Shown here piece after piece: positions 1,007-32,099 of a stretch of 32,099 nt of DNA. The translations under genes and the position numbers were made by a program. The notes under the pieces were generated by a model. It made no database searches and was not told where the DNA came from. It saw only the letters and a program-made list of their open reading frames with translations. Source of the stretch: Planctomycetota bacterium (GTDB taxonomy: Bacteria > Planctomycetota > UBA1135 > GCA-002686595); the NCBI GenBank assembly GCA_029259605.1, contig JAJDEV010000220.1, forward strand, positions 1 through 32,099. Reading direction: 5' to 3'. How positions within the stretch are numbered: position 1 is the stretch's first letter; each line of letters starts with the position of its first letter.

Positions 1007-1091
1007 CTAGCGGGCCGTGGTGCCTCGGAGGAGACGCAACGCGCGTGCAGCCCCCCGCGAGGATGTCGTGAGCCTCACCACGGGTTGCTAG
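1007..1091. repeat. CTAG-ended inverted repeat, copy B
   Basis: Both ends of this 85-bp stretch read inward as CTAGC, three variable bases, then CCGTGGTG; 13 of the first 16 positions match between the arms. The right arm contains the TAG stop of the KptA-like gene and is the near-copy of 19-43. The left arm lies just upstream of the kinase gene start. It resembles a small mobile or extragenic palindromic element. Transcription-terminator activity is possible but there is no U-run. Confidence 0.55.
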
Positions 1092-2206
1092 ATCCCCGCT
1101 CCGAACCCGGGACCGCTCGACTCCTTGGGGGTCGAGCGCGCGGGCGCGGGCGTCGGGGCCGGACGCGGCGGCGGCGGTGCGGCCGCTTCCTGGCGCGACG
1201 CGCGCTCGCGCTCGCGTTCACGCTGCTCTTCGGTGAGGCCGGCCCCGAACGCGGGCGCGTTCGCGGGGCGCGACTCGCGCTTGCGTTCCGTGCGCTCGGG
1301 CGCGGGTGCCGCCGGTGCGGCGGCCGCCGGTTTGCGCTCCGGACGCTCTTCGCGGCGCGGACGCTCGTCGCGCGACGGTCGATCGTTGTCGCGTGTGCGT
1401 CCGCGGTCGTCATCACGCTTCTCGGCACGCTCGCGCGGTGCACGTTCCTCACGCGGTGCACGTTCTTCGCGCGGCGCACGTTCTTCGCGCGGCGCGTCGT
1501 CGCGGTCCGCGCGCGGGCGTTCCCGGTCGTCGCGTTCGTCCCGGTCGCGGCCGCGTCCGCGGCCTCCGCGACTGCGCCCGCGTTCGCCACCGCGTCGCTC
1601 GCCACGGCCGCCGCCGCGACGTCCGTCGCCGCGCCCACCGCGTGCGCCACGCTCGCGCTCGGTGCCGTCGTGGTAGGTCTCGCCAACGTCGATGAGGTGC
1701 GTCGGGACCTCCTCCGCGAGCCACAGGGACTTGCGGTCGTAGAAGTTCACGCCCTCTTCCCACGCGTCGAGCGCGCGGATCACGAGCACCGTGTAGTCGA
1801 CGGCGTTGCGCCGCCCCGACTCGCGCGCGTCGTCTTCCGTCAGCGCGAGGTGCAGGAAGCGACGGCGTCCGCCGCGCAGGCCGAAGCGCTTCGCGCGGTC
1901 GAGGTCGCGTTCGGGGATCGCGACGTAGAAGAACTCGGGCGGCTTGCTCGCGTCGCCGGGCTCGACCGGAACCGAGTGGCCGTAGAGCGCACGGATGCGA
2001 TCGCCCTGGATCTCGTAGCGCGCGCGGTCGCCGGAGCTGACGGCTTCGGTCAGGTCCGCCTCGTGCACCGGATCGCCGAGGCGTTCGTTCAGGGCGCGGA
2101 CGACGTCGCCGACATCGGCCCAGCCGTAGGCGTCCAATTCCAAATCGAATTGCTCCGGTTGGTGGCGGAGCATGAAGGCTAGGGCTCGCGTGATGCGCTC
2201 GATCAA
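1088..2206 (-). CDS. KptA/Tpt1-like RNA 2'-phosphotransferase with long charged C-terminal tail
   Basis: The first 180 of 372 residues match the KptA/Tpt1 family, which moves an RNA 2'-phosphate to NAD+. Seen are LRHQPE (13-18, with R14 and H15), a winged-helix-like region to about residue 75, IRALYGHS (71-78, with R72) and RRFLHL (115-120, with R115 or R116). These are plausible counterparts of the family's Arg-His-Arg-Arg catalytic set. The usual YHGT motif is replaced by FYVAI (93-97), so activity is uncertain. Residues 180-372 are a low-complexity Arg/Glu/Asp/Gly/Pro tail with tandem PREERA units, expected to be disordered and possibly RNA-binding. The start is TTG at 2206; the first internal ATG (2173) would remove conserved residues before LRH. 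No Shine-Dalgarno site is seen. Confidence 0.8.
   Translation of the reverse strand: MIERITRALAFMLRHQPEQFDLELDAYGWADVGDVVRALNERLGDPVHEADLTEAVSSGDRARYEIQGDRIRALYGHSVPVEPGDASKPPEFFYVAIPERDLDRAKRFGLRGGRRRFLHLALTEDDARESGRRNAVDYTVLVIRALDAWEEGVNFYDRKSLWLAEEVPTHLIDVGETYHDGTERERGARGGRGDGRRGGGRGERRGGERGRSRGGRGRGRDRDERDDRERPRADRDDAPREERAPREERAPREERAPRERAEKRDDDRGRTRDNDRPSRDERPRREERPERKPAAAAPAAPAPERTERKRESRPANAPAFGAGLTEEQRERERERASRQEAAAPPPPRPAPTPAPARSTPKESSGPGFGAGI
1426..1500. repeat. 21-bp tandem repeat inside the KptA-like tail
   Basis: About three and a half near-identical 21-bp units lie in the coding sequence, each giving a seven-residue unit of the APREER type on the minus strand. The units differ by single transitions, as expected from recent replication slippage. 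Confidence 0.7.
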
Positions 2207-12222: not shown

Positions 12223-14085
12223 ATGCTCATCCCCCTTGTTCTAGCGCTCCTCGCGGGCGCAACCCTCGAGTCGCGAGCCCACCCGACCGCAGGCGATTCG
12301 GCCTGTCGTCCCGCGGAATACGACGCGGCCCAGGATCCGGAGGCGCCCGCTCCCGAGGCGCCCTGCGCGCCCGAGCAGGACGGCGACGAAGAGTTCGCGA
12401 CGGCGCGTCGCCTGCTCGACGAAGGACGCTGCGGTGAAGCCGCGACCGCGTTCGCGCGCATCGTCGATCGCGATCCGACGATCGGCGGGGCCTGGTTCCT
12501 CTACGGCTACGCGGTGCACATGTGCGCGTCCGAGGCGGCGACCGAAGGGGAACAGGTCGCGCTGCTCGAGCGCGCGCTCCAACTGCACCTGCGCGCCGCC
12601 GAGTTCGACGAGCTGCGCGGGTCCGCGCTCTACAACGCAGCCTGCGTGTGCGCGCTGCTCGGTGACACGGAGGAGGCGTTTCACTGGCTCGAGGAGGCGT
12701 TCGAGAACGGCTTCCGCTGGCGCAACACGGTCAAGTTCGACAAGGACCTGATCTCGCTCCACGGCGATCCGCGCTTCGAACAGTACCTCCCGCCCGAGAC
12801 GACGAACTCGGGACTCGGCGACGACGTGCGCGTCCTGCAATCGTTCTGCGGCGAGAGCGCGGGCGATCAGTTCGGATGGAACGGACGCAACGTCGGCGAT
12901 TGCGACGGCGACAAACACGCGGACATCGCGATCTCCGCGCCCTATCGCAAGGTGACGGGGCCGAACGCCGGAACGGTGTACGTCTATTCGGGAGCGACGG
13001 GCGAGAAGCTCTTCGTGCGCACCGGAACACCTGGCGAGAAGCTCGGCGTCGGACTCGACGCGGCCGGTGACGTCAACGGCGACGGATTCGCCGACATCGT
13101 CGCGGGCGCGAGCCAGTCGTACGACGTGGCCGGCAAGGCGTACGTCTTCTCGGGTGCCGACGGCTCGACGCTGCTCGAGCTCTCCGCGTTCGAGACCGGC
13201 GACCTGTTCGGCGCCAAGGTCACGGGCGTCGGAGACTTCGACGGCGACGATTGCTCCGAGCTCCTGATCGGCGCGCCCGGAAGCGACGAGGCGGGCAAGG
13301 ACGCGGGGCGCGCCTACCTCTTCTCGGGCAAGACCGGACGGCTGCTCGTCACGATCGACGGCGACCGGCCGGGCGACTCGCTCGGCACGTGCGTCGCCGG
13401 CACGGCGACGGGATCGCGACGCCTGGTCGCGATCGGTGCGGCCAACGCCGGCCCCGGACAGCGCGGCCGGGTCTACGTCTACGAGTTCCACCCGGGGCGC
13501 CCGGCGAACGAGGCGCTCGAGCCGATCTTCGGCATCGAATCGGACCGCACGGGCATGCACCTCGGCGGCATGTTCCTGTCCTTCGTCGGCGACATCGACG
13601 CGGACGGAACGCCGGACGTCTACGCATCGGACTGGGAGAACAACGCGCACGGACGCACGACCGGGCGCGCCTACGTCCACTCGGGTCGCACCGGCGAACG
13701 GCTCCTGACGCTGACCGGCGAACACGCCGGCGACGGCTTCGGGATCGGCCCCGGTCGCGCCGGCGACGTGAACGGCGACGGCCACGATGACCTCATCATC
13801 GGCGCGTGGCGCAACAGCGAAGGCGCGCCGATGGCGGGCAAGTGCTACCTGTTCTCGGGCGTCGACGGCTCGCTGCTCGACGAGTACATCTGCTCGATCG
13901 AAGGCGACACGTTCGGCTTCGACGCGGTCGGAATGGGCGACCTCGACGGAGACGGCGGCATCGACTTCCTCATCACGTCGGCGTGGAGCGGACGCGCGGG
14001 CAAGAAGTCCGGACGCGCGCTCGTCGTCGCCGGCCCGGTGTGGAACACGACGCTCGTCCAGGCGACCGCCGCCCAGGACGAGTAA
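12223..14085 (+). CDS. Secreted TPR plus seven-bladed FG-GAP (integrin-alpha-like) propeller protein
   Basis: A 620-residue protein with a signal peptide (about 1-20), a helical TPR-like region (about 55-185) and a beta-propeller (about 205-610). Seven blades can be counted from their openings GDQFG, GEKLG, GDLFG, GDSLG, GMHLG, GDGFG and GDTFG. Six blades carry a calcium-type loop (for example DCDGD, DVNGDGFAD, DFDGD, DIDADG, DVNGDGHDD, DLDGDG). Blade four has none. Such proteins act outside the cytoplasm in binding or adhesion; no enzyme motif is seen. A GATACT box ends eleven bases before the ATG, so the transcript may have almost no leader. Confidence 0.85.
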   Translation: MLIPLVLALLAGATLESRAHPTAGDSACRPAEYDAAQDPEAPAPEAPCAPEQDGDEEFATARRLLDEGRCGEAATAFARIVDRDPTIGGAWFLYGYAVHMCASEAATEGEQVALLERALQLHLRAAEFDELRGSALYNAACVCALLGDTEEAFHWLEEAFENGFRWRNTVKFDKDLISLHGDPRFEQYLPPETTNSGLGDDVRVLQSFCGESAGDQFGWNGRNVGDCDGDKHADIAISAPYRKVTGPNAGTVYVYSGATGEKLFVRTGTPGEKLGVGLDAAGDVNGDGFADIVAGASQSYDVAGKAYVFSGADGSTLLELSAFETGDLFGAKVTGVGDFDGDDCSELLIGAPGSDEAGKDAGRAYLFSGKTGRLLVTIDGDRPGDSLGTCVAGTATGSRRLVAIGAANAGPGQRGRVYVYEFHPGRPANEALEPIFGIESDRTGMHLGGMFLSFVGDIDADGTPDVYASDWENNAHGRTTGRAYVHSGRTGERLLTLTGEHAGDGFGIGPGRAGDVNGDGHDDLIIGAWRNSEGAPMAGKCYLFSGVDGSLLDEYICSIEGDTFGFDAVGMGDLDGDGGIDFLITSAWSGRAGKKSGRALVVAGPVWNTTLVQATAAQDE

Positions 14086-15175: not shown

Positions 15176-16150
15176 ATGCACCCCGTCCTCTTCGAGATCC
15201 CCGGCATCGGGTTCCCCATCCGGAGCTTCGGCGTCATGGTCGCCGGTGGGATGTTCCTCGGCATCTGGCTCTGGGGCCGCCTGCTCGCCAAGTATGGCGA
15301 CGATCCCGAGGAGGATCCGCTGCGCGCGTCGCAGGTCGCGGTCTGGGTCGTCATCGGCATCCTGCTCGGCGCGCGCCTCATGTACGTCACCGTCGAGTCG
15401 ACGCGCTACCTGACCGCGGACGTGTCCGAGGAGGTCGAGGCCTACCTCTCGGCGTCGCAACGTGGACAGGTCGCGGCGACGCTCTCCGCCGAAGACCTCG
15501 CGACCGCTCGACGCGTCGCGGGCGGCCATGACTTCGTGCACGACCCGGTCAAGATCCTCCTCATCTGGCAGGGCGGACTCGTCATGTACGGCGGGCTGAT
15601 CGGCGGCGCGTTGCTCGGAATGTGGAGCAGCCGCAAACAGAAGCTGAAGGTTTGGAGCGCGCTCGACACGGCGTTGATCGGCGCCTTCGCCGGCCTGATG
15701 GTCGGTCGCTGGGGCTGTCTGTTGGTGGGCGACGACTTCGGCAAGGTCGTCGAGGGCGCGCAGGCGAGCCTGCCGTTCCCGCTCACGATCACGGTTCCGT
15801 CGCTCGACTGGCTCAACGCGCATCCGCAATCGCTCTTCCCGCGCGAGTACGCCGGGCAAACGCTGTGGGCGACGCAGGTGTGGATGAGCGTCAACGCGAT
15901 CCTCGTCGCGCTCGTCGGCTGGTTCGTGCTGAAGCGGCGCACGTGGAAGGGGCAGGCGATGGCGGTGATGATCGTGCACTACTCGATCACCCGCTTCCTG
16001 ATCGAGATGTACCGCGGCGACGAGATCCGCGGTGTGTGGTTCGACGGCGCGCTGTCGACGTCGCAGCTCATCTCGGTCGCCGGGTTCGCGCTCGGCGTCT
16101 TCCTGCTCGTGAAGCGCCCCGGCCCTCGGATCACCGCGGCGTCGGCATGA
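15176..16150 (+). CDS. lgt: Prolipoprotein diacylglyceryl transferase
   Basis: A 324-residue inner-membrane enzyme that transfers diacylglycerol from phosphatidylglycerol to the lipobox cysteine of prolipoproteins. The Lgt pattern is clear: IGFPIRSFGVMVAGG near the N-terminus, GGLVMYGGLIGG (133-144), the signature region GRWGCLLVGDDFG (177-189) with the key Arg R178, and RFLIEMYRGD (273-282). Differences from E. coli are the signature Asn replaced by Cys, the Glu by Asp (about 186), the HGG motif by YGG, and an extra hydrophilic segment of about 50 residues (74-125). The two lipoprotein genes in this window fit its presence. Its TGA overlaps the ATG of the next gene (ATGA), so the two are co-translated. 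Confidence 0.9.
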   Translation: MHPVLFEIPGIGFPIRSFGVMVAGGMFLGIWLWGRLLAKYGDDPEEDPLRASQVAVWVVIGILLGARLMYVTVESTRYLTADVSEEVEAYLSASQRGQVAATLSAEDLATARRVAGGHDFVHDPVKILLIWQGGLVMYGGLIGGALLGMWSSRKQKLKVWSALDTALIGAFAGLMVGRWGCLLVGDDFGKVVEGAQASLPFPLTITVPSLDWLNAHPQSLFPREYAGQTLWATQVWMSVNAILVALVGWFVLKRRTWKGQAMAVMIVHYSITRFLIEMYRGDEIRGVWFDGALSTSQLISVAGFALGVFLLVKRPGPRITAASA

Positions 16151-18822: not shown

Positions 18823-20148
18823 TTGAAGACTGCGATCCTCGGCGCCGGCGTCTCCGGTCTGGCCCTAGCGCGCCGACTGGCCGAGGGCGGCCTCCCCGCC
18901 TCCGACGTGCACCTGTTCGAGGCCGGCCCCGTGATCGGCGGGCTCTGCCGGTCGAAGACCGTCGACGGCTTCACCTACGACGTCTCGGGCGGCCACATCC
19001 TGTTCAGCAAGGACGCGCCCACCATGCAGTGGATGCGCGACTGCGCCGGCGGCGATGACGCGTTCGTCAAGCGCGACCGCAACACGAAGATCCGCTTCGA
19101 CGATCGCTGGGTGCACTACCCGTTCGAGAACGGCCTCGGCGACCTGCCCGACGGGGCGAAGTTCGACTGCCTGAAGGGTTACGTCGAGGCGTGGCACGCG
19201 CGCCAGGTCGACGCGAGCGCGGCGCCGAAGGACTTCAAGAGCTGGATCCAGTGGCGCTTCGGCGACGGCATCGCCAAGCACTTCATGGACCCGTACAACG
19301 AGAAGATCTGGAAGCGCCCGCTGGAACAGATCACCAGCTCGTGGGTCGCGGGGCGCGTGCCCGACGCACCGATCGACGACGTGCTGCGCGCGGCGATCGG
19401 CATCCGGACCGAGGGCTACACCCACCAGGCGATCTTCTACTACCCGAAGCAGGGCGGGTTCCAGGCCATCACGGACGGCATGGGTTCGACGCTCGCCCCG
19501 CAGATCCGCCTGAACACACGCGTCGAGAGCGTGACGCGGCACGGCGACGGATGGCGTGTGAACGGCGAGGACTTCGACCGCGTCGTCAACACGATCGCGA
19601 TGAACGATCTGCCGGACATCGTCGAAGGCATTCCGGACGACGTCGCGGCCGCGATGCGCGGGCTCGCGTTCAACTCGATCGTGTGCTTCCTCGTTGCGCT
19701 CGATCGCCCCGAGCATCCGAACCTGTCGTGGATCTACCTGCCGCAGCACGCGCAGGGTCCGGTCAACCGCGCGACGTACATGTCGAACTACTCCCCGGGC
19801 AACGCGCCCGAGGGCAAGACGAGCTTCCTGTTCGAGGTCACCGTGCCCGGCGGACACGCGCCGCCCGCGGGCGACCTCGAGGCCGAGGTGCTGCGCGGCG
19901 TCGAGCACGCGGGACTCCTGCGCAGGGACGAGGTGCTCTTCACCGATCGCAGCTTCTGCAAGCACGCGTACATCGTGTACGACCACGAGCTCGACGCACG
20001 CCGTGCGTCCTCGATCGCGTGGTGCGAGGCGAACGGCATCGAGCCGCTCGGTCGCTTCGGACACTACGACTACTTCAACTCGGACCAGTGCGTGATCGCG
20101 TCGACCGCGCTCGCCGAGCGCATGCTCGAACAAGCCCGCACGGGCTGA
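18823..20148 (+). CDS. UDP-galactopyranose-mutase-like FAD-dependent oxidoreductase
   Basis: A 441-residue flavoprotein of the amine oxidase/UDP-galactopyranose mutase type. It opens with the dinucleotide-binding motif ILGAGVSGLALARRL (5-19), then FEAGPVIGGLCRS and YDVSGGHILFSKD, the conserved FAD-contact regions of this group. IWKRPLEQITSSW and YPKQGGFQAI match the mid-protein pattern of Glf-like and protoporphyrinogen-oxidase-like proteins. A sugar-nucleotide ring-contraction role or oxidation of a lipid or sugar is possible; the substrate is not determined. The start is TTG at 18823, needed to include the Rossmann motif. A GT2 gene starts 14 bases after the stop, suggesting joint work on a glycan. 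Confidence 0.8.
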   Translation: MKTAILGAGVSGLALARRLAEGGLPASDVHLFEAGPVIGGLCRSKTVDGFTYDVSGGHILFSKDAPTMQWMRDCAGGDDAFVKRDRNTKIRFDDRWVHYPFENGLGDLPDGAKFDCLKGYVEAWHARQVDASAAPKDFKSWIQWRFGDGIAKHFMDPYNEKIWKRPLEQITSSWVAGRVPDAPIDDVLRAAIGIRTEGYTHQAIFYYPKQGGFQAITDGMGSTLAPQIRLNTRVESVTRHGDGWRVNGEDFDRVVNTIAMNDLPDIVEGIPDDVAAAMRGLAFNSIVCFLVALDRPEHPNLSWIYLPQHAQGPVNRATYMSNYSPGNAPEGKTSFLFEVTVPGGHAPPAGDLEAEVLRGVEHAGLLRRDEVLFTDRSFCKHAYIVYDHELDARRASSIAWCEANGIEPLGRFGHYDYFNSDQCVIASTALAERMLEQARTG

Positions 20149-20161
20149 GGCGCGCGCAGTC

Positions 20162-21181
20162 GTGACGGCTTCGACTCGAGCGGGTGCGATCACGGCGGAG
20201 CCGCGCTCCGTCTCGATGGTCATTCCGACGTGGAACGCGGGCGCGCGCTTCCACGAAGTGCTCGAGGCCCTGCGCTCGCAGTCTTTCGAGGGCGGCTTCG
20301 AGCTGCTCGTGATCGACTCGGGTTCGACCGACGGCACGCCGGAGGCGGCGCGCGCGGCGGGCGCGCGCGTGGAGTCGATCGCGCAGAGCACCTTCGGCCA
20401 CGGCCGCACGCGCAACCTCGGCATCGCGCACACGTCGGGCGACATCGTGCTGCTCCTCACCCAGGACGCCGTCCCCATCGGCAGCGACTACGTGGCGAGC
20501 CTCGTCGGCGCGTTCGACTCCGGCAACGTCGACGGCGCCTACGCGCGCCAGTACCCGCGCCCGGATTGCGACCCGATCCTCGCCGAGCGCCTGCGGCAGT
20601 GGAGCGCGTCGCGCAACGAGCGCGTGCTCCAGGTCCTCGCACCCGGCGACGCCGCCGCGGCGCAGCTCCTGTTCTCGCGCCTGCCCCCCATCGAGCGCTA
20701 CCTGTCCTGCGCCTTCGACAACGTCGCGTCGGCCGTGCGCCGCTCGACCTGGGAGCACACGCCCTTCCCCGAGCGCTCGTTCGGCGAGGACGTGGCCTGG
20801 GCGCGTGAGGTCCTGCTCGCCGGCGGCGCGGTCGCGTACGAGCCGGCGGCCAGCGTCGAGCACTCGCACCGCATCGAGCTCGTGCGCGAGTTCAAGCGGC
20901 TCTACTGCGACCATCGCAACCTGATCGAGCTGTTCGACCTGCGCAACGTGCCGAGCTGGCGCTCGGTGCGCGCCGGCGCACGCGGTCAGCGCGACGTGTA
21001 CCGGAAGCTGCTCGACGGCCAGCCGCTCGGCGCGTGGGAGCGCCGCTACTGGCGGCTGTACTCGGTCCCCTACGCGTGGCTCGAATGTGCGGCGCAGTTC
21101 CTCGGCGCGCGCAGCCACTGGAAGACCGAGGAGAGCGGGTTCTGGCGCTGGTTCGACGGGCGCGTGCGGCGCGGCGTCTAG
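20162..21181 (+). CDS. Family 2 glycosyltransferase (GT-A fold)
   Basis: A 339-residue glycosyltransferase of the rhamnosyltransferase-like GT2 group. Motifs are MVIPTWNAG near the N-terminus, IDSGSTDGTPEAA, a DxD-type site in LLTQDAVPIG, and GEDVAWAREVLLAGG, which supplies the catalytic-base region, followed by the conserved HSH. It would transfer a sugar from a nucleotide donor to a lipid-linked or surface glycan at the cytoplasmic face. The start is GTG at 20162 with a weak GAGG 11 bases upstream. The stop codon forms the first bases of a 166-bp palindrome. Confidence 0.88.
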   Translation: MTASTRAGAITAEPRSVSMVIPTWNAGARFHEVLEALRSQSFEGGFELLVIDSGSTDGTPEAARAAGARVESIAQSTFGHGRTRNLGIAHTSGDIVLLLTQDAVPIGSDYVASLVGAFDSGNVDGAYARQYPRPDCDPILAERLRQWSASRNERVLQVLAPGDAAAAQLLFSRLPPIERYLSCAFDNVASAVRRSTWEHTPFPERSFGEDVAWAREVLLAGGAVAYEPAASVEHSHRIELVREFKRLYCDHRNLIELFDLRNVPSWRSVRAGARGQRDVYRKLLDGQPLGAWERRYWRLYSVPYAWLECAAQFLGARSHWKTEESGFWRWFDGRVRRGV

Positions 21182-21343
21182 CAGACTGTGGCAAAAGTCA
21201 TTCACCTGCAGAACGCCGTCCTCCACTCCGGCTTGGCCCCCGAAAGCCTCGCCGAATCCACCGATTCGCCTACGTTTCCGGAGACCAACCCGGAGCGGAT
21301 GCCGACGCTCTGCGGGCGAAGCACTTGCGCCACAGCCTGCTAG
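21178..21343. repeat. 166-bp imperfect palindrome with CTAG ends
   Basis: The two 83-bp halves are inverted copies matching at about 61 of 83 positions (counted by eye), with no insertion or deletion. Both ends read inward as CTAGCAG, one base, CTGTGGC. The axis of symmetry lies between 21260 and 21261, within GAATCCACCGATTC. The left end includes the TAG stop of the glycosyltransferase gene. The element resembles the CTAG-ended copies at 19-43 and 1007-1091 at its tips. A dispersed palindromic element, or two inverted copies of a shorter repeat, are the likely explanations. Confidence 0.75.
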
Positions 21344-21459
21344 CCCGGTCGGCAATCCCTTCTCGCCGGACGAGCTTCGCCGGACGGTCGCCACCGTTCC
21401 GCGCGACTCGGCGTAAACTGGGCGCCCTACCGCGGAACACGCGGTACCTCGCAACCGGG

Positions 21460-24297
21460 ATGAACATGGAAGAGCGCGCCGAACCCGCGCAACCGCACGA
21501 CGGCGAGCCACGCCGCGCCACCGATCGTTCGGACGACTCGGGCGAACCGACGCCGTCGCGGCGGCCGGCCGACGATGCCGGTGCGCCGGACGAGGATCCG
21601 GAGGACGCGGGGCAGGACGACCTGCTCGTCCTCGCACGCCTGCTGCGCGAGGAGGAGACCGCCGCGGCCGAGGCGATGGACGAGGACGAGCCCGACCGCG
21701 AGCCCGAAGCGGACGAAGACGAGTTCCTCGACGACGTCCTGGGCATCGCGCTCGACGAGGACGACGTCGACCTCGCTGCTCTCGACGCCGAGGACGATGG
21801 CGGCGACGGCTCCGACGCGACGTGGATCGCCGGCCGCTTCGAGCTCGTCGCGCGCCTCGGCAACGGGCCGCGCGGCTACGTGCTGCGAGCGCGCGACCAC
21901 GAGAACCAGCGGCGCGAGATGGCGCTCAAGCTGCTCGACGACGACGGCGACGACCTCGAGGCGCGCGCGCGCGCGTGGCTGCGCGACACCGAGCGCCTGA
22001 CGCACGGCTCGATCAATCGCGCGCGCGAAGTCGGCTCGACCGAGGACGGGCGCGTCTGGATCGCCTCCGACCTGGTCGACGGAGAGAGCGCGCGCACGCT
22101 CGCCGAGCGCGCCGGAGCGCTGCCGCCGCGGCACGCGTTCGAGATCGTGCGCCAGGTGTTGCTCGGCCTCGAGAAGGGACACGAGCTCGGGCTCGTCCAC
22201 GGCGACGTCAAGGCCGAGAACGTCGCGCTCGTGCGCCGCGTCGCGTGGACCGAGGACAACCCGTTCGGCGTCGGCGTGCGCATCCTCGACTACGCCCTAC
22301 CGGGGATCTTCGCGCCGGCGAGCGCGGCGGACGATCTGCTCGCGGTCGGCGTGTTGCTCGCCGAGCTGCTCACCGGTTCGCGTCTCGAGCGAGATGCATC
22401 GGATTGGATCGGGAGCGGTGCGTCCGTCTCGACCGCCAACCTGACCGCGAAGGCGCGCGACGTGCTCGATCGCGCGCTCGACGACGACCCGCACGCACGC
22501 TTCGCCAGCGCGGCCGAGTTCCGCGCGGCGCTCGAGGCGACTCCCGAGTGGCGCCCGGAGGCACCCGCGCGCCGCGGGCTCACCCTCGGGCTCGTCGCGA
22601 CGGCCGCCGCGGTCGCCGTGGCCTTGTTCGTCTTCCGCGATCGGCTGCCGGTCGTCAGCGCGAAGGACGCGGCGCCGCCGACGGAAGACGCGGTCGACGT
22701 CGCGCGCATCCAATCCGAATGGCAAGCCGAACGCGAGGCGTTCCGCACGCGGCTCGACACGCTCGACGCCACGGCGGCGCAGTCGCAAAGCGAACTCGAG
22801 CGCGTGCGCGCCGAGCGCGAGCTCGACCGCATCGAGCGCGAGAAGCGCGAGCGCGAACTCGCGGCGAAGGCGCGCGAGGTCGACGCGCTCGAAGCGCGCA
22901 TGCGCGACGAAGCGGCGAAGGCCGCCGCGGCCCAGGCCCTGCTCGACGCGCGGGCCGAGGCCGAGGCCGTCGAGGAGGCCGCGCCGCTCGTCGCCGCGCC
23001 CGACCCGGCCGAGGCCGAGGCGCGCACCGTCGCCCGCGAGGTCGATCGCGTTCTCAAACCGCTCGTCGCCGTTCGTGTGGAGCGAGCGGGCCGCGCGGCG
23101 GCGGAGCTCAGCGACCCGGACGCACGACGCTTGTGCGCCGCGCTCACGGCGGCGCTCGGCGCGGCCGACGCGCTCGAGCGCGAGCCCGACGCGCTCGCGC
23201 GCCTCGACCTCTTGCCCGCCATGCACACGACCTTTCGCGACGGGCGTCAGCTCGAGCGCGCGATCGTCGTCGCCCAGCGCCCGCTCTGGTCCACGCTCGG
23301 ACCGGCCCCGGATCGCGCGCAGCGTGTGAGCGAGGTGCTCGACGCGATCGACGCGCAGGGAGCCCGGCTCGAACGCGAGCTCGATCGCGCGCTCGAGGAG
23401 CGTTGGAACGACCTGCTGCGCGCGCCCGATCGAGATCCGCGCGACGTCCTGCGCATCGCCGATCACTTCGACGACGGTCGCCTGCCGCTGTTCGTCGAAC
23501 GCCTCGCTCCGTGGCTCGCCGAGCGCTTGCTGCCCGCCGGGCTGCTGTCGCGCTCCGCGCTCCCGCGCTTCCAGCACCTCGGCGCGTGGGGCGCCGCGCT
23601 CGACACGCGCGCGGACGAGCTGCGCATGGCCACGGACGCCGCGCGTGAAACGGTCGCGGGGCTCGCCTTCGCGCACGCGTTCTACGCCACGCCTGGAACG
23701 CCGCTGCCCCGCGTGCCCGACGCGCTCGCGCTCGAGAAGACCCACTTCGACGGCTCGTGGCGCGAGTCGCTCGCCATCGGCGCCGCGCTGCTCGCGCCGA
23801 AGACCGGGCTGCCCGGCAAGGTCGGATCGCGTCGGCTCTACTTCGCGCGCACGCCCGATGGCGAGGAGAGCTGGCGCTGGGACGCGGTCGGTCCCGACTC
23901 GACTCCCCCGCCGGACGCGGACGCGAGTCGGCTCGTCACGCAAAGCTTCCACGACGCGGACGGAGTGAAGCTCGGCGAGCGCACCCTGCGCGTGTTCCGC
24001 ATCGGTCGACGCATCTTCGAAGAGGACGTGCGGCGCGTCGAGCTGTGCGACCTGGCCGCGCCCGAGGACGGCTTCAGCGTGCAGACCTGGGGCGGCGGCG
24101 GCACGCCGAATCCGCCCGCGCGGTTGCTCGTCGTGCCGGTCGCGCTCGACGCGTTCCGCGATCGGCTGCGACGCCTCCCCGAGCGCTGCCTCGTGCGCGA
24201 GAACGGCGCCGCGCGGACCTGGTGGTCGCCGACGCTGGGCTGCGTGCGGCACGCGGATCCGGACTGGATCACGTACGAGCTCGTGTTCGCCGAGTAG
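21460..24297 (+). CDS. Membrane protein kinase-like protein with coiled coil and unknown C-terminal domain
   Basis: A 945-residue protein. Residues 1-120 are very acidic and probably disordered. A Ser/Thr-kinase-like domain follows (about 124-365): a glycine loop LGNGPRGYVLRARD (133-146), MALKLL with K157, HGDVKAENV (247-255) with D249 and N254, and LDYALPG (276-282), where D277 stands at the DFG position but the rest is changed. One transmembrane helix (374-392) leads to a charged coiled coil (about 415-510). The last 430 residues match nothing I recognise. The core catalytic residues survive, so weak activity is possible, but a pseudokinase scaffold is equally plausible. The ATG at 21460 (or 21466) opens the acidic region. 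It is convergent with htpG, three bases apart. Confidence 0.75.
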   Translation: MNMEERAEPAQPHDGEPRRATDRSDDSGEPTPSRRPADDAGAPDEDPEDAGQDDLLVLARLLREEETAAAEAMDEDEPDREPEADEDEFLDDVLGIALDEDDVDLAALDAEDDGGDGSDATWIAGRFELVARLGNGPRGYVLRARDHENQRREMALKLLDDDGDDLEARARAWLRDTERLTHGSINRAREVGSTEDGRVWIASDLVDGESARTLAERAGALPPRHAFEIVRQVLLGLEKGHELGLVHGDVKAENVALVRRVAWTEDNPFGVGVRILDYALPGIFAPASAADDLLAVGVLLAELLTGSRLERDASDWIGSGASVSTANLTAKARDVLDRALDDDPHARFASAAEFRAALEATPEWRPEAPARRGLTLGLVATAAAVAVALFVFRDRLPVVSAKDAAPPTEDAVDVARIQSEWQAEREAFRTRLDTLDATAAQSQSELERVRAERELDRIEREKRERELAAKAREVDALEARMRDEAAKAAAAQALLDARAEAEAVEEAAPLVAAPDPAEAEARTVAREVDRVLKPLVAVRVERAGRAAAELSDPDARRLCAALTAALGAADALEREPDALARLDLLPAMHTTFRDGRQLERAIVVAQRPLWSTLGPAPDRAQRVSEVLDAIDAQGARLERELDRALEERWNDLLRAPDRDPRDVLRIADHFDDGRLPLFVERLAPWLAERLLPAGLLSRSALPRFQHLGAWGAALDTRADELRMATDAARETVAGLAFAHAFYATPGTPLPRVPDALALEKTHFDGSWRESLAIGAALLAPKTGLPGKVGSRRLYFARTPDGEESWRWDAVGPDSTPPPDADASRLVTQSFHDADGVKLGERTLRVFRIGRRIFEEDVRRVELCDLAAPEDGFSVQTWGGGGTPNPPARLLVVPVALDAFRDRLRRLPERCLVRENGAARTWWSPTLGCVRHADPDWITYELVFAE

Positions 24298-24300
24298 CGC

Positions 24301-26190
24301 TCAGCTCTTCTGCAGCATCAGCTCCGTGACGAGCTGCGCGAAGCGCACCGGGTCCTGCGGCGCTTCCCCACCCGTGACGAGCGCGGTGCCGAGCAAGAGC
24401 TCGCAGCCGCTCGCGAAGCGCGCGTAGTTGGCGTCGTCCGCCTGCAGCGCGGTGAGGTGCTCGATCAAGGGATGCGTCGCGTTGAGCTCGAGCGTCGCCT
24501 TCGCATCGGGCACGGGCTGGCCCGACTCTGCGAGCATGCGGCGCATCTGCGGCGTCAGGTCGTTGTCGCCGCCGACGAGGCACGCGGCGCTGTCGGTGAG
24601 GCGTGAGGAGAAGCGTACGGCCTCGACCTTGTCGGCCAGCTCCTTGCGGATCGCCTCGAGCACGGGCGCGAGCTCCTTCTCCTTCGCTTCACGCTCGGAC
24701 TTCTCGCCCTCGTCCTCGAGGTCGTGCTCGCCGCGGTCCACGCGCTTGATCGCGTGCTCGTCGAACTCGGTGAAGCGCTGCAGCACGAACTCGTCGACCG
24801 GGTCCGTCAGGAACAAAACCTCGACCTTCTTCGCCGCGAACGCCTCGAGGTGCGGCGAGCGCCGCGCGGCCTCGATGTTCGGCGCGACGAGCACGTAGAT
24901 GTCCTTCTGCTTGACCGGCATGCGCTCGACGTACTCGGCCAGGGTCGTCGGCTCGTCGCCGACCGTGCCGTGGAAGAGCGCGAGGCGCGCGACGTCTTCC
25001 TTGTGCTCGTCCTCGTAGTAGAGCCCCTCCTTCAGCACCTGGCCGAAGGCCGCCCAGAACGCGGCGTAGTCCTCGCGCCGGTCCTTCTGCAGCGCGAGCA
25101 GCGCGTCGAGCACCTTGCGCGTCAAGCGCTTGCGGATCTGCGCCATCTGGCGGCCGGATTGCAGCGTCTCACGCGACACGTTGAGCGGGAGGTCGGCGCT
25201 GTCGACGACGCCGCGCACGAAGCGCAGCCAGCTCGGCATCAGCTCCTCGCAGTCCTCCATGATGAAGACGCGACGGACGTAGAGGTGCACGCGCGACTTG
25301 GCCTGCTTCGGATCGAAGAGGTCCATCGGGCGCGCGCGCGGAATGTAGAGCAGCGCGGAGTACTCGGTCGTGCCCTCGACCTTGAAGTGCACGGTCTCGA
25401 GCGGCTCGTTCCAGTCGTGCGTCAGGTGCTTGTAGAACTCGACGTACTCGCTGTCCTCGATCTCGCTCTTCGGCCGCGCCCACAGCGGCTTCTTCGAGTT
25501 GAGGACCTCGAGCTTGGCGTCGTCGCCCTCGCCGGTCTCGAGTTCGATCGGGTACTCGATGAAGTCGGAGTAGCGCTTCACGACATCCTTCAGCACCCAC
25601 TCGGCCGTGTAGTCGCGGTCGCCGTCGACGTTCGGGTCGACGTCCTTCAGGTGCAGGACGACCGTCGTCCCACACTCGCTCTTGTCGATCTCCTCGAGCG
25701 AGTACTCGCCCTTGCCCTTCGAGATCCAGCGCGTGCCCTTCGCTTCGCCGGCGCGCTTGGTCTCGACCTCGACCTCGTCCGCGACCATGAACACGGAGTA
25801 GAAGCCGACGCCGAACTGACCGATCAGCTCGGGCAGGCTCACGTTCTTCTCCTGCGCTTCCTTCAGCGAGTTCAGGAAGCCCTTTGTGCCGGAGCTCGCG
25901 ATCGTGCCGATGTTGTCGATCACCTCCTGGCGCGACATGCCGATGCCGTTGTCGTCGATCTCGAGCACGCGATTCTTCGCGTCGACTTCTATTCGGACGC
26001 GTAGGCCAGCGGTGTCGGCGCCGAGCTCGGAATCGCGCAGCGACTCGAAGCGCAGGCGATCGAGCGCGTCGCTCGCGTTCGAGATCACCTCGCGCAGGAA
26101 GATTTCCTTGTGCGTGTAGAGCGAGTGAATGACGAGATCGAGCAGCTGGCTCGTCTCGGCCTGGAAGGCGATGGTCTCTTTCTTCGACAT
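24301..26190 (-). CDS. htpG: Molecular chaperone HtpG (Hsp90)
   Basis: A 629-residue cytosolic ATP-dependent chaperone, the usual length for bacterial Hsp90. The N-terminal ATPase signatures are complete: LLDLVIHSLYTHKEIFLREV, then ISNASDALDRLR, IDDNGIGMS, GTIASSGTKGF and IGQFGVGFYSVFMVAD. Middle-domain features include RRVFIMEDCEELMPSWLRFVRGVVDS and LNVSRETLQ with the catalytic-loop Arg further on. The C-terminal dimerisation domain is intact. The start ATG at 26190 (MSKKETIAFQ) matches the family N-terminus; an ATG 24 bases upstream is possible. No Shine-Dalgarno site is seen for either. Confidence 0.97.
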   Translation of the reverse strand: MSKKETIAFQAETSQLLDLVIHSLYTHKEIFLREVISNASDALDRLRFESLRDSELGADTAGLRVRIEVDAKNRVLEIDDNGIGMSRQEVIDNIGTIASSGTKGFLNSLKEAQEKNVSLPELIGQFGVGFYSVFMVADEVEVETKRAGEAKGTRWISKGKGEYSLEEIDKSECGTTVVLHLKDVDPNVDGDRDYTAEWVLKDVVKRYSDFIEYPIELETGEGDDAKLEVLNSKKPLWARPKSEIEDSEYVEFYKHLTHDWNEPLETVHFKVEGTTEYSALLYIPRARPMDLFDPKQAKSRVHLYVRRVFIMEDCEELMPSWLRFVRGVVDSADLPLNVSRETLQSGRQMAQIRKRLTRKVLDALLALQKDRREDYAAFWAAFGQVLKEGLYYEDEHKEDVARLALFHGTVGDEPTTLAEYVERMPVKQKDIYVLVAPNIEAARRSPHLEAFAAKKVEVLFLTDPVDEFVLQRFTEFDEHAIKRVDRGEHDLEDEGEKSEREAKEKELAPVLEAIRKELADKVEAVRFSSRLTDSAACLVGGDNDLTPQMRRMLAESGQPVPDAKATLELNATHPLIEHLTALQADDANYARFASGCELLLGTALVTGGEAPQDPVRFAQLVTELMLQKS

Positions 26191-26313
26191 GGATCTGGGT
26201 TCGGAAGCGTTCATCGGAGTCTTGGAGCGCCATGCGTGCACGGCGCCCATTACGACGGAGTCTACGCGGGTTCGCCGTTCGCTTCGAGCGTAGAGGGGAT
26301 CCGCGAAGCGCGG

Positions 26314-26319
26314 TATCAT
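26314..26319 (+). promoter_or_regulatory. Candidate -10 box close to a start codon
   Basis: TATCAT ends seven bases before the ATG at 26327. If used, the transcript would start at or next to the initiation codon (leaderless). No good -35 box is visible. Confidence 0.25.
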
Positions 26320-26326
26320 CGACCCC

Positions 26327-26995
26327 ATGGCCATGCCTCGCTGCTGCACCTCGCTCCGCACCCTTTCCGTCCGGTCGTCCGCCGCGCTCCGCGTCACCTC
26401 GCTCCTCCTGCTCGCGGCCGGCTGGACCGCGTGCGCCTCACCCGCGCGGGGCATCGTGTCCTCGCCGCCGGGCTTCGGGGGGTTCCCGACGCGCTCGTCC
26501 GACGCGGAGCTGTGGGCCGAGGCGGTGCTCTACACGGATCACGCCGACCGACTCGGCGCCGACCTGGCGGGCGCGCGTGTGCTCCCCGTCGCGTTGCGCG
26601 TCGGCACGATCACCGCGCCACCGAACGCGGAAGAGCGCTTCGCGTTGCGACCCGAGACGCTCGACGCGCGGCTGTTCCTGCAGGACGGCACGGTGCTCGA
26701 GTGGACGCGGCCCGACGCGGTTCCGGCGCGCGGTCGCGTGCGCAACGCGGCGACGAATCGCGGCCTCGCGCTCAGCCTCGTTCCCACTTGGGAGAACGCC
26801 GAGGAGGGCTTCCTCTTCTTCACGCTTCCGCCCGGCGTCGACGTCAAGAGCCACTACGCGCTCACCGCGCGCAACGGCGTGTACCGCGAGGTGGACCTGA
26901 ACCACTCGCTGCTCTGCTTCCGGGTCGAGACGCCCGAGGGAACGCGCGAGATCAAAGTCGGCGTTCGCGCCGAGGCGTACGGGGGCTCGCGATGA
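26327..26995 (+). CDS. Exported probable lipoprotein of unknown function
   Basis: A 222-residue protein with a basic N-terminus, a hydrophobic signal segment (about 20-32) and a cysteine in LLAAGWTAC (about 36) that fits a loose lipobox; Trp at -3 is unusual. The mature part is Ala/Arg-rich, probably all-beta, and contains no motif I recognise (for example LYTDHADRLGADL, LPPGVDVKSHYALTARNGVYREVDLNHSLLCF). Its TGA overlaps the ATG of the next lipoprotein gene, so the two are co-translated and may form an outer-membrane pair. Confidence 0.7.
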   Translation: MAMPRCCTSLRTLSVRSSAALRVTSLLLLAAGWTACASPARGIVSSPPGFGGFPTRSSDAELWAEAVLYTDHADRLGADLAGARVLPVALRVGTITAPPNAEERFALRPETLDARLFLQDGTVLEWTRPDAVPARGRVRNAATNRGLALSLVPTWENAEEGFLFFTLPPGVDVKSHYALTARNGVYREVDLNHSLLCFRVETPEGTREIKVGVRAEAYGGSR

Positions 26996-28294: not shown

Positions 28295-29641
28295 CTAGCG
28301 CTTCCAGCTCCGGACCGCGGCGTCGATGTAGGCGCGCAGCTCGGCGACCTGGACCTTGTCCTGCTGCATCGTGTCGCGGTCGCGGATCGTCACGACGTCG
28401 TTTTCGAGCGTGTTGCCGTCGATCGTGATGCACCACGGTGTGCCCACTTCGTCCTGGCGGCGATAGCGGCGGCCGATCGCGCCCTTCTCGTCGTAGAACG
28501 TCGCGAAGCCGGCGCGGCGCAGGTCCTCTTCGACCTCCATCGCCTTCTCCGGCATGCCGTCCTTCTTGACGAGAGGGAACACACCGACCGTGATCGGTGC
28601 GATCTCGGGGTGGAAGTGCAGGACGACGCGGGTGTCCTTCTCGAGCTGCTCTTCCTCGTAGGCGTCGACCAAGAAGGTCAGCGCCATGCGGTCGATGCCG
28701 CCGGCCGGTTCGATGACGTAGGGCGTGTAGTGCTCCTTCGTCTGCGGGTCGAAGTACTCGAGCGTCGTGCCCGATGCCTCCGAGTGGCGCTTGAGGTCGA
28801 AGTCCGTGCGGCACGCGATGCCCTCGAGCTCGCCCCAGCCGAACGGGTACTCGTACTCGATGTCGCAGGTTGCGGTCGAGTAGTGCGCGAGCTCCTTCTG
28901 ATCGTGCTCGCGCACGCGCAGCTTGTCCGCGCGGATGCCGAGGTCGGTGTACCAACGGTAGCGCTCGTCGCGCCAGTAGGCGTACCACTGGTCGTTCTCG
29001 TCGGGCGGCACGAAGAACTCCATCTCGGCCTGCTCGAACTCGCGCATGCGGAACACGAAGTTGCCCGGCGTGATCTCGTTGCGGAACGACTTGCCGATCT
29101 GCGCGATGCCGAAGGGCGGCTTGATGCGCGCCGAGCTGAGCACGTTCGCGAAGTTGAGGAAGATGCCCTGCGCGGTCTCGGGGCGCAGGTACGCGACCGA
29201 ACCCGAGTCCTCCATCGGCCCGAGGTTCGTCTTGAACATCAGGTTGAACGAGCGCGGCTCGGTCAGCTCGCCGTGGCACTCGCCGGGATGCTTCGAGGGC
29301 TTCTCCGGGCACGCGAGCTGGTCCAAGTGATCCGCCCGGAAGCGCCCCTTGCACGTCTTGCAGTCGATCATCGGGTCCGAGAACCCGCCGACGTGGCCCG
29401 AGACCTCCCAAACACGCGGGTTCTGGAGAATGGCCGAGTCGAGCCCGACCACATCGCGCCGCACCGTCACCGTCCGCGACCACCACGCGTCCTTGACGCG
29501 CCGCTTCAGCTCGACGCCGAGCGGACCGTAGTCGTAGGTGTTGCCGATCCCCCCGTAGATCTCGGAGGCCTGGAAGATGAACCCCCTGCGCTTGCACAGG
29601 GAGACGATCGTGTCCATCAACGACGGGGCTTGCTTGGCCAT
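28295..29641 (-). CDS. glyS: Glycyl-tRNA synthetase, single-chain (dimeric) type
   Basis: A 448-residue class II aminoacyl-tRNA synthetase that charges tRNA-Gly. This is the alpha2 single-chain form, not the two-subunit form typical of E. coli. Key segments are CKRRGFIFQASEIYGGIGNTYDYGPLG, HVGGFSDPMIDCKTC with further Cys residues of the zinc-binding insertion, RPETAQGIFLNF, the motif 2 region FRNEITPGNFVFRMREFEQAEMEFF, motif 3 GGIDRMAL, and a C-terminal anticodon-binding domain (APITVGVFPLVKK onward). The ATG at 29641 (MAKQAPSLMD) gives the normal N-terminus. Confidence 0.96.
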   Translation of the reverse strand: MAKQAPSLMDTIVSLCKRRGFIFQASEIYGGIGNTYDYGPLGVELKRRVKDAWWSRTVTVRRDVVGLDSAILQNPRVWEVSGHVGGFSDPMIDCKTCKGRFRADHLDQLACPEKPSKHPGECHGELTEPRSFNLMFKTNLGPMEDSGSVAYLRPETAQGIFLNFANVLSSARIKPPFGIAQIGKSFRNEITPGNFVFRMREFEQAEMEFFVPPDENDQWYAYWRDERYRWYTDLGIRADKLRVREHDQKELAHYSTATCDIEYEYPFGWGELEGIACRTDFDLKRHSEASGTTLEYFDPQTKEHYTPYVIEPAGGIDRMALTFLVDAYEEEQLEKDTRVVLHFHPEIAPITVGVFPLVKKDGMPEKAMEVEEDLRRAGFATFYDEKGAIGRRYRRQDEVGTPWCITIDGNTLENDVVTIRDRDTMQQDKVQVAELRAYIDAAVRSWKR

Positions 29642-29753
29642 AGGAAGGGTGCGCCTCACGGGGCGCCGGCTCGGGGCGAACGGGCGCGGGAGTCTACCGG
29701 GCGGCGTCACCCGTCGCCGAACAAAACCGCCGCGCGCGCGTCTGCGCGCGCCG

Positions 29754-30842
29754 CTACTCGGAGAGCTCCGCGAGCAGCTCGGCCACGACGCGTTCGAGCT
29801 TGTCGCCGTGCACGTCGCGGTGGCGGATGCGTCCCTCGGCGTCGATCACGAAGTTCGTCGGGAACATGCGGATGCCCCACTCGGACGGGATCGGGCCGTC
29901 GGGTCCGCCCTGCCACGCGTCGCGCCAGTTCAGCTCGTGCTCCTTCGCCTTCGCCGCGTACTCCGCTTTGTCCGTGTCCGTGTTGATGCCGATCATCGCG
30001 AAGGGGTCAGACTTGTGACGCTCGACGAGCGCCCGGAAATCGGGGATTTCCTGAACACAGGCGCCTCACCAGAAGCCCCAGAAGTCGAGCACCACGACCT
30101 TGCCGCGGTAGTCGGAGAGCTTGAACGTGTTGCCCTCGACGTCGGGCGACTCGAAGTCGGGCGCGAGCTTGCCGGGCTGGAAGCGCAGGTCCGCGATCTT
30201 CCGGCGCGCCTTGGCGGCGAACTTCGAGTCCGGCGCTTCGGCCATCAGGCGTCGAAACAGCGCCTCTGCCTTCTCGCTCGCGTCCGCCCCGTCGGCGCGG
30301 TTCAGCTCGAGGGCGAGCGAGTACATCGCTGCCGTGCGCACGTCGTCGCTCTCGGACGTCTCGACGAGGGCACTGAGCCACGCCTGCACCTCGTCGCCCG
30401 TGAAGTAGTCCGTCTGCTTCGTGACTCCCTTGACGAAGTCGGCCGTGAACTCCTCGCTCGCGAACTCGGCGACGATGCGGTCGAAGGACGCGCGCTTGAG
30501 CTCGCGCACCTCGCCCGGCGTCCGCTCGGTCTCCTCGGCGTTCAAGCCGACCCAGAGGACGGCGCGCCCGTCGCCACCCGCGGCCACCGCCTCGAAGCGC
30601 GCGAAGTAGGCGTGGATCGGATGCGGAACCGTGAAGTCCGCATTCCTCTTCTCGCGCTGCGCGGCCCGGCGCGCGCGGCGCCAGTCGAGCGAGGCGTCCT
30701 TGTACTCCGCGAGCAGCGCGTCGTAGGTCTCGCTCGCCGCGCCGGAATCGGTGACATCGTCCGTCGCGGGGCGATCGGTCGGAAGCGGGCCCTGGGGGGC
30801 GAAAAGGACGGCGGAGGCCATCGCGAGCGTCGCGGCGATCAT
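29754..30842 (-). CDS. TlpA-like thiol-disulfide protein with in-frame TGA (candidate selenoprotein, UxxC)
   Basis: Read through one TGA (30066-30068), this gene encodes 362 residues. There is a signal-like N-terminus (1-16), a helical region (about 37-220) and a redoxin/TlpA domain (224-362). Before the TGA the frame gives [19 protein letters not shown] and [10 protein letters not shown]; after it the same frame gives [17 protein letters not shown] and, later, the cis-proline region [13 protein letters not shown]. The TGA codon is residue 259, exactly the first Cys of the thioredoxin CxxC site; C262 is kept. No other stop or frameshift occurs. A strong hairpin begins at the base after the TGA. 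The best reading is selenocysteine at 259 in an exported redox protein. The alternatives are a TGC-to-TGA sequencing error or mutation, or a recent pseudogene. The start is ATG at 30842. Confidence 0.85.
30028..30065 (-). promoter_or_regulatory. SECIS-like hairpin directly after the in-frame TGA
   Basis: In the minus-strand RNA, counted from the base after UGA, bases 1-7 (GGCGCCU) pair with 32-38 (GGGCGCU), including two G-U pairs. A seven-base bulge (8-14) follows on the 5' side. Bases 15-20 (GGAAAU) then pair perfectly with 26-31 (AUUUCC) around the loop CCCCG. The loop begins 20 bases after UGA, within the usual spacing of bacterial selenocysteine insertion elements. The loop lacks a G in its first two positions, a departure from the E. 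coli-like consensus. Confidence 0.6.
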
Positions 30843-31023: not shown

Positions 31024-32099
31024 ATGGCCTCCCTAGCCACGTCCGCCCCCGACGCGTCGCCGAGCGAGCATTCCGCGCCAACCTGGCGCGCGCCGCTGGT
31101 TTCGTCCGCCAGCTCCGGTCCCCAGGCGCAGCGCCTCGCGCGCATCGCCGCGCGCGTCGAGGACGGCGAGCGGATCGACGCGGAGGAAGCGCTGCTGCTC
31201 CACGAACACGCCGACCTCCCCACGCTCCTGCGCCTCGCCGATCTTGCGCGCGCGCGCAAGCACCCGGACGGCATCGTCACCTACATCGTCGATCGCAACA
31301 TCAACCCGACGAACGTGTGCATCACGGACTGCGGGTTCTGCGCCTTCTACCGGCGCCCCAAGCACGACGAAGCGTACGTCCTCGACCGCGAGGTGATCGT
31401 CGAGAAGGTGCGCGAGACGGCCGAGCTCGGCGGGCGCCAGATCCTCATGCAGGGCGGACACCACCCCTACATCAAGACGGACTGGTGGTGCGACCTGATC
31501 GCCGACCTGCGCTCGCGCTTCCCGCAGGTGAACGCGCACGCGCTGTCCGCGCCCGAGCTCGATCACCTCGCGCGCATCGAGAAGCGTCCGGTCGCCGACG
31601 TGATCGACGAGCTGATCCAGGCCGGGCTCGGCAGCGTGCCGGGCGCCGGCGCGGAGATCCTGGTCGAACGCGTGCGCCTGATCATCGCACCGAAGAAGAC
31701 CACCACCGACCAGTGGCTCGACGTGCACCGCAAGATCCACGAGGCGGGCCTGCGCTCGTCCGCGACGATGATGTTCGGACACGTCGAGACGCCGGCCGAA
31801 CGCATCGAGCACCTCGCGCGCCTGCGCGACCTCCAGGACGAGACCGGCGGGTTCACCGCGTTCGCGTCCTGGAACACGCAACCCGAGGGCGTGCCCGAGG
31901 AGCACCTCTATCCGGAGCGCACGACGCCGGCCGTGTACCTGCGCGTCCAATCCATCGCGCGCATCTTCCTCGACAACATCGAGAACATGCAGACGAGCTA
32001 CGTGACCCAGGGCATGAAGACGAGCCAGGTCACGCTGCGCGCGGGCTGCAACGACTTCGGCGGGACGATGCTCGAGGAGAACGTCGTCAGCGCCGCCGG
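31024..32099 (+). CDS. mqnC: Cyclic dehypoxanthinyl futalosine synthase (partial, runs off the window)
   Basis: 358 residues are visible and the frame is open at the window edge. MqnC is a radical-SAM enzyme of the futalosine route to menaquinone that cyclises dehypoxanthine futalosine. The signature [23 protein letters not shown] carries the cluster-binding CxxxCxxC (C99, C103, C106). The following [62 protein letters not shown] and [30 protein letters not shown] are characteristic of MqnC. The related MqnE differs in these segments. The N-terminal 30 residues are a low-complexity extension. No other mqn gene is visible. Confidence 0.93.

Follow-up and report, generated by a model that had tools for sequence, protein, structure and literature searches.

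A planctomycete TlpA/ResA-like redox gene with an in-frame TGA at its active site is a probable selenoprotein gene from a family with RNA hairpins downstream of the codon

UxxC selenoproteins of the TlpA/redoxin fold are already known, and the gene described here is not unprecedented in kind. A thiol-disulfide isomerase-like selenoprotein with a UxxC motif has been catalogued under pfam13905 (PMC9312934) and under cd02966 (PMC13188914), four sequences of such a family were recovered from the Sargasso Sea (PMC1088965), and 321 sequences of Trx-like 1 (COG0526) UxxC selenoproteins came from the Global Ocean Sampling data (PMC2398784). Planctomycetes with selenocysteine (Sec) machinery and selenoprotein genes are likewise known, and the supplementary list of that study may include the family described here (PMC4807772). 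According to the accessible text of a 2026 review, the groups richest in selenoproteins are Thermodesulfobacteriota, Synergistota and Clostridia, and aerobes rarely keep selenoproteins (PMC13188914).

The window analyzed here is a 32,099-nucleotide stretch of DNA from a Planctomycetota bacterium (contig JAJDEV010000220.1 of assembly GCA_029259605.1). A sequence-only reading of this stretch had proposed a TlpA-like selenoprotein in which one in-frame TGA splits an otherwise intact redoxin domain at the first Cys of CxxC. Both points were borne out, on the minus strand, which that reading had left unstated. The frame runs from an ATG at 30842-30840 to a TAG at 29756-29754, and the only other stop triplet across its 362 codons is the TGA of codon 259 (30068-30066), where the active-site context reads FWGFW-U-GAC. 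The frame stays open past the TGA to the end of the domain, and Pfam matches to AhpC-TSA and Redoxin run across the codon (residues 222-350). Openness after the TGA is weak evidence by itself because 103 open codons would occur by chance with a probability of about 0.13 at 69.7% GC, and the case therefore rests on homology. The features of the gene and of its surroundings are collected in Table 1.

Table 1. Coordinates of the candidate selenoprotein gene, its parts and other annotated genes in the window.
Feature	Coordinates	Strand	Basis
Candidate selenoprotein gene, 362 residues, one in-frame TGA (Sec259)	29754..30842	minus	frame reading
TGA codon 259, putative Sec, first position of CxxC (U-G-A-C)	30066..30068	minus	
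Cys262 codon, partner (resolving) cysteine	30057..30059	minus	invariant in 40 aligned proteins
Pro328 codon, putative cis-Pro opposite the active site	29859..29861	minus	invariant in 40 aligned proteins
Hydrophobic N-terminus, residues 1-20, putative signal peptide	30783..30842	minus	by eye
All-helical N-terminal domain, residues 40-219	30186..30725	minus	helices of AlphaFold2 model
TlpA/ResA-type thioredoxin domain, residues 222-361	29760..30179	minus	Pfam, AlphaFold2, fold and profile searches
Distal SECIS-like hairpin, type B register, 7/7 pairs, loop GUC (30024-30026)	30017..30033	minus	
Proximal hairpin, 7 bp, loop CCC without G, 21 nt from UGA	30035..30051	minus	
Hsp90	24301-26454	minus	Pfam
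Large protein-kinase-domain protein	21034-24297	plus	Pfam
Flavin amine oxidase	18823-20148	plus	Pfam
Lgt	15176-16150	plus	Pfam
FG-GAP repeat protein	12223-14085	plus	Pfam

Three further genes of the window were noted. The next gene downstream on the same strand (28295-29710, minus) encodes a class II tRNA synthetase core with an anticodon-binding domain and by reading resembles glycyl-tRNA synthetase. A divergent radical SAM gene with a CofH/MqnC C-terminal region (31024-32097, plus) runs past the window end, and an ORF at 1088-2206 (minus) matches the RNA 2'-phosphotransferase Tpt1/KptA family with 70 bits.

An AlphaFold2 model built on a 40-row family alignment (A1) has a mean pLDDT of 92.5 and a pTM of 0.80, with helices from residue 40 to 219 followed by a thioredoxin fold up to residue 361. 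Redoxin, AhpC-TSA, Thioredoxin_8 and Thioredoxin are each matched by 40/40 family members at E <=0.001, and the window protein itself scores 76.5 bits against Redoxin (cut-off 26.6) and 38.1 bits against PF13905 (cut-off 27). For the helical domain, one of the 40 members matches TPR_6. Four positions are invariant in alignment A1: position 259 (Sec counted as Cys), C262, P328 and T329. The earlier statement that the thioredoxin fold continues through the cis-Pro region agrees with the invariance of P328-T329, with P328 as the putative cis-Pro. The hydrophobic N-terminus suggests that the protein is exported.

Three narrower assignments of the protein were considered. Its 72.9 bits against the ResA model of NCBIfam (NF002854) fall under the curated cut-off of 170 bits for ResA proper. 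The ResA-like WAxxUGC selenoprotein model (NF041054) gives 40.9 bits against a cut-off of 300, and the motif is UGAC, not UGC. Peroxiredoxins carry the active-site signature PxxxTxxC, which is absent from FWGFWUGAC. For the peroxiredoxins and for the UGC-type family, motif and score together led us to reject membership.

The same selenoprotein could nevertheless work mainly as a peroxidase of a peroxiredoxin-like UxxC type rather than as a thiol-disulfide reductase. AhpC-TSA and Redoxin are its best Pfam matches, GSHPx is also matched by 4/40 family members, and the NCBIfam models PrxQ and PrxU are matched weakly (27 and 22.6 bits). However, ResA-type reductases and thiol-disulfide oxidoreductases lead both the Foldseek search (4nmu_B, E 1.7e-11, 29% identity) and the profile search (4nmu, 5.1e-29), the ResA model, while short of its own cut-off, scores well above the peroxiredoxin ones, and the motif is W-U-x-x-C where peroxiredoxins have T-x-x-C. 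We therefore consider a mainly peroxidatic enzyme unlikely. Of the two roles that had been suggested from the sequence, thiol-disulfide or peroxide-linked, the first is favored on fold grounds and the second is less likely.

Matches to the family were found in 61/61 genomes searched. Among the first 30 rows listed, 27 have a single TGA as their only stop; of the other three, one carries a TAG alone, one a TGA and a TAG, and one is stop-free. For the alignment to residue 259 we used 30 supplied loci, 60 chosen regions (with stop-free copies deliberately included) and three named loci, leaving out three weak fragments that miss the active site as well as duplicates (the main copy of L052 is L029). 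This first set provides 93 positions, with TGA in 77, Cys in 8 and other residues in 8. Thirty loci from a survey of the phylum add 21 new positions, with TGA in 21/21, so that the distinct positions examined, which are a non-random sample, show TGA in 98/114, Cys in 8/114 and other residues in 8/114. The usual context of the active site in the family is DFWGxW-U-(G/P)PC, and Cys is the commonest alternative at the site (8/16 non-TGA rows). An alignment of homologues had been proposed as a check; TGA or Cys occupies 106/114 positions, and the homologues run on rather than ending at the site.

In L079, L092, L108 and L110-L113, the active-site Sec or Cys aligns with His, Ser, Gln, Val, Glu or Asn, and these copies are possibly non-redox members of the family.

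The genome of the window holds 12 family matches. Four copies were examined, namely the window gene, two with TGA (C6/L071 and C11/L094) and one with Cys (C273/L095). A sequencing error is untenable because other genera, and also the two additional copies of this genome, have the same TGA. Across the phylum, 153/294 planctomycete genomes match the family profile at E <=1e-30 (seven candidates scored per genome). Among the matches listed, 117 rows reach E 5e-50, of which 109 contain one in-frame TGA and 8 are stop-free, and these 109 represent 62 genomes and 21 family codes. The survey counted TGA codons, whose position was checked for the fetched loci only. Single genomes can carry at least four TGA copies (e.g. 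G003 and G311). TGA paralogues also lie side by side in tandem in other genomes, for example at L027, L042 and L044.

The genome assembly (5.88 Mb, 305 contigs, 91.5% complete) was searched for selA, selB, selC and selD, whose absence had been named as grounds for rejecting a selenoprotein, and all four are present. The tRNA-Sec gene reaches 75.6 bits (gathering score 47) and is called tRNA-SeC with anticodon tca (UCA) by ARAGORN. SelA is matched with 410.6 bits, SelB as two stretches of a 789-codon frame (together 343.7 bits) and SelD with 314.4 bits. The SelD frame holds an in-frame TGA of its own (SCAGUAAK), which fits the UxxK motif given for Sec-containing SelD in the accessible text of PMC13188914. 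The selD gene (L018:155-1099, contig C263) shares its contig with the tRNA-Sec gene and is located some 2.4 kb upstream of it.

Among relatives, tRNA-Sec is found above cut-off in 58/61 genomes. In the phylum survey, which used strict filters, it is present in 55/62 genomes with a TGA copy vs 124/232 others (Fisher p 1.4e-7). Under these filters no tRNA-Sec scored above cut-off in G035, G121, G123, G186, G205, G226 or G263, which are 77-92% complete. A permissive search of the three relatives lacking a hit (G022, G035 and G038) again yielded none above cut-off, and SelA was found in all three. Because G022 and G035 have TGA copies and SelA without a tRNA-Sec above cut-off, the correlation is imperfect; no TGA copy of G038 is among the matches listed. 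The SelA match of G035 spans 250/367 positions and the G022 assembly comprises about 750 contigs, and incomplete assemblies likely explain the missing tRNA-Sec in these two genomes. A divergent tRNA-Sec is the alternative for them.

These data also bear on the idea that codon 259 is read as Trp, Cys or Gly through recoding, be it local or genome-wide, or passed by simple readthrough, since a bacterium could in principle reassign TGA or leak at it. TGA is a normal stop in this genome because 3/8 Pfam-supported ORFs of the window end in it (Hsp90, amine oxidase and Lgt), which opposes genome-wide reassignment. The earlier claim that TGA ends eight other genes was checked in part, on these eight ORFs; the other five end in TAG (four) or TAA (one). 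Moreover, a full selABCD set with a TGA-bearing SelD indicates Sec, and the commonest alternative residue at the site is Cys. We regard recoding or readthrough as highly improbable.

The 106 Sec and Cys domains gave a poorly resolved tree (48/103 inner branches open, several long branches), whose strong branches force the Cys label to change at least four times. In this tree the window copy clusters with three Cys copies and one Sec copy (97). The tree supports an apparent repeated change between Sec and Cys, direction aside.

Next, the RNA downstream of the codon was considered, with the T of TGA numbered 1. Two hairpins recur in the family. In type A, positions 28-34 pair with 39-45 around a GGUC loop (GAGC-GGUC-GCUC), and in type B, which lies 8 bases further on, 36-42 pair with 46-52 around a loop region N-GU-N. 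At least 6/7 pairs of A or B are present in 73/77 TGA copies vs 1/16 non-TGA rows. RNAalifold found no structure over all 77 TGA copies together because the two registers were mixed, and splitting the copies by register resolved the structure.

Codon usage in the type A region points to constraint on the RNA. We used the 52 copies that have Glu-Arg-Ser-Leu (ERSL) at codons 11-14, chosen by protein sequence alone, which avoids circularity. Arg is CGG in 51/52 of them vs 143/986 elsewhere in the same genes (Fisher p 8e-39), Ser is TCG in 52/52 vs 194/770 (p 9e-30) and Leu is CTC in 51/52 vs 643/1323 (p 8e-15). ERSL itself occurs at these codons in 52/98 Sec copies and 0/16 non-Sec rows. The type A helix has 98.0% of cells paired and two compensatory cells, its variation being too low for much covariation.

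The type B helix was evaluated in the 47 other TGA copies, where 90.8% of cells are paired. Cells changed on both sides number 24 vs 6.8 in shuffles and <=4 when the helix is slid, and the covariation score is 0.286 vs <=0.110 when slid. The number of pairs with two-sided change, three among these 47 copies, is no higher than in shuffles. Invariance of the loop G-U is not independent evidence because it falls within a conserved Val codon. A second, proximal stem of at least 6 bp is present in 33/47 non-type-A copies, 0/51 type A copies and 0/8 Cys copies; a threshold of at least 5 bp separates the groups poorly (38, 8 and 3 copies, respectively). Of the 47 non-type-A copies, 39 have at least 6/7 distal pairs and 34 have both hairpins.

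To assess stability, codons 2-19 were shuffled synonymously 300 times. Over the whole region, the median z is -1.73 for type A (24/41 at p <=0.05) and -2.04 for the remaining TGA copies (23/36), vs -0.51 for the Cys copies (1/8), a control of 8 rows only, and +0.22 for the others (1/8). Divided into parts, type A copies have a distal z of -1.98 (22/41) and a proximal z of -0.48 (1/41), and the remaining TGA copies have a distal z of -1.39 (12/36) and a proximal z of -1.90 (17/36). On this comparative evidence, selection acts in the family on the RNA that follows the TGA.

The published bSECIS model has an upper stem of 4-16 bp, a loop of 3-9 nt with G in its first two positions, a distance of 16-37 nt from the UGA in most elements and an MFE <= -7.5, as given in the accessible text of PMC13188914. 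Type A copies, with a GGUC loop 31 nt from the UGA, agree with its stem, loop and spacing. Across 21 genomes, a covariance model of type A matched 26 sites at E <=1e-10, 25 of them within family matches and one at a contig end (G012:C612); at this threshold the element therefore revealed no other selenoprotein families. Taken together, we lean toward a large planctomycete TlpA-like Sec family whose SECIS would come in two forms, interchangeable and offset by 8 bases. The nucleotide-frozen type A element would dictate the protein (ERSL), and type B would be a hairpin that covaries, has G-U in its loop and mostly follows a proximal hairpin of drifting register.

The window copy has the type B arrangement with a proximal hairpin. 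Its distal loop is 39 nt from the UGA, just beyond the published range, and the distal stretch folds at -10.3 kcal/mol; the lowest-energy fold extends the proximal hairpin by borrowing bases of the distal one. Synonymous shuffles match the downstream RNA of this copy in stability (z +0.28, p 0.58; p 0.07 for the distal part), and a 62-nt stretch gives z -1.98 against dinucleotide shuffles. Because of this weak signal, the hairpin claim, although strong for the family, is no more than suggestive for the window copy.

The weak RNA signal of this copy when taken alone, together with the ordinary use of TGA as a stop in this genome, would suit a true stop that leaves a 258-residue helical protein and a dead redox domain, or a TGA that arose as a nonsense mutation or a sequencing error. 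However, the redox domain past the TGA is conserved and open in other genera and families, the TGA totals at this codon include two further copies from the same genome, the Sec machinery is complete, and RNA selection tracks the TGA copies as a group and is not seen in the few Cys copies (8). We give these readings very little credence.

TGA codon 259 is thus almost certainly used to insert Sec at the active site, judging from comparative sequence data. The original proposal of a selenoprotein is supported by the prevalence of TGA at the homologous positions, the complete selABCD set and RNA selection in the family. Very probably, the gene product is an exported TlpA/ResA-like thiol-disulfide oxidoreductase in which Sec replaces the attacking Cys of CxxC (Sec259-Gly-Ala-Cys262), with a hairpin in the coding sequence directing SelB. 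The UGA would be decoded by the tRNA-Sec of this genome, brought by SelB, which would be guided by the RNA hairpin just downstream of the codon. The Sec259 selenolate would then attack a substrate disulfide, and Cys262 would resolve the mixed selenosulfide. TlpA/ResA enzymes are recharged by a CcdA/DsbD-like protein, and a membrane reductase of this type might recharge the Sec-Cys pair. With Sec as its attacking residue, such a domain is expected to be a faster, more nucleophilic reductant. For the window copy, we infer Sec insertion, SelB binding, export, the substrate and the recharging partner.

Gene callers that treat TGA only as a stop would truncate these genes and lose the redox domain, and this planctomycete redox family is therefore probably mis-annotated in many assemblies. 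With its two registers and strongly frozen codons, the family supplies numerous natural variants on which signal recognition by SelB could be tested. If the two SECIS forms are indeed interchangeable, they constitute a natural series on the tolerance of SelB for a shifted RNA signal.

Among solved structures, the closest folds over residues ~222-361 are ResA, TlpA and CcmG (PDB 4nmu, 1st9, 1jfu and 2b1k), whose chains of ~140-190 residues have Cys in place of Sec and no helical domain. The NF041054 ResA-like selenoprotein also combines a ResA-like domain with Sec, but its motif is UGC rather than UxxC. The Sargasso Sea family shares the fold class and UxxC with the window protein, which passes PF13905; it consists of marine metagenome reads, and the accessible description, on which this comparison is based, mentions neither a helical N-terminal domain nor such an RNA element (PMC1088965). 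The Trx-like 1 set is likewise of the UxxC thiol-disulfide isomerase/thioredoxin type but comes from metagenome reads, and a word search of PMC2398784 gave no occurrence of "planctomycet". Judged by its description in the accessible text, the Redoxin family selenoprotein (PF08534, PMC13188914) shares the Redoxin domain and UxxC, and "planctomycet" is absent from the text of that review. Algal TlpA selenoproteins, again as described in the accessible text (PMC7539508), also belong to a Sec-containing TlpA family, but they are products of eukaryotic genes and the algal protein has a hemerythrin domain. A full-text literature search, which had most subscription journals outside its scope, returned no description of a planctomycete TlpA-type Sec family or of the RNA element. 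Compared with these systems, the multicopy planctomycete Sec TlpA-like family and its two-register RNA element appear to be new, and with at least four TGA copies in some single genomes and occurrence in 21 family codes the family adds a lineage to the picture of selenoprotein-rich groups drawn in PMC13188914.
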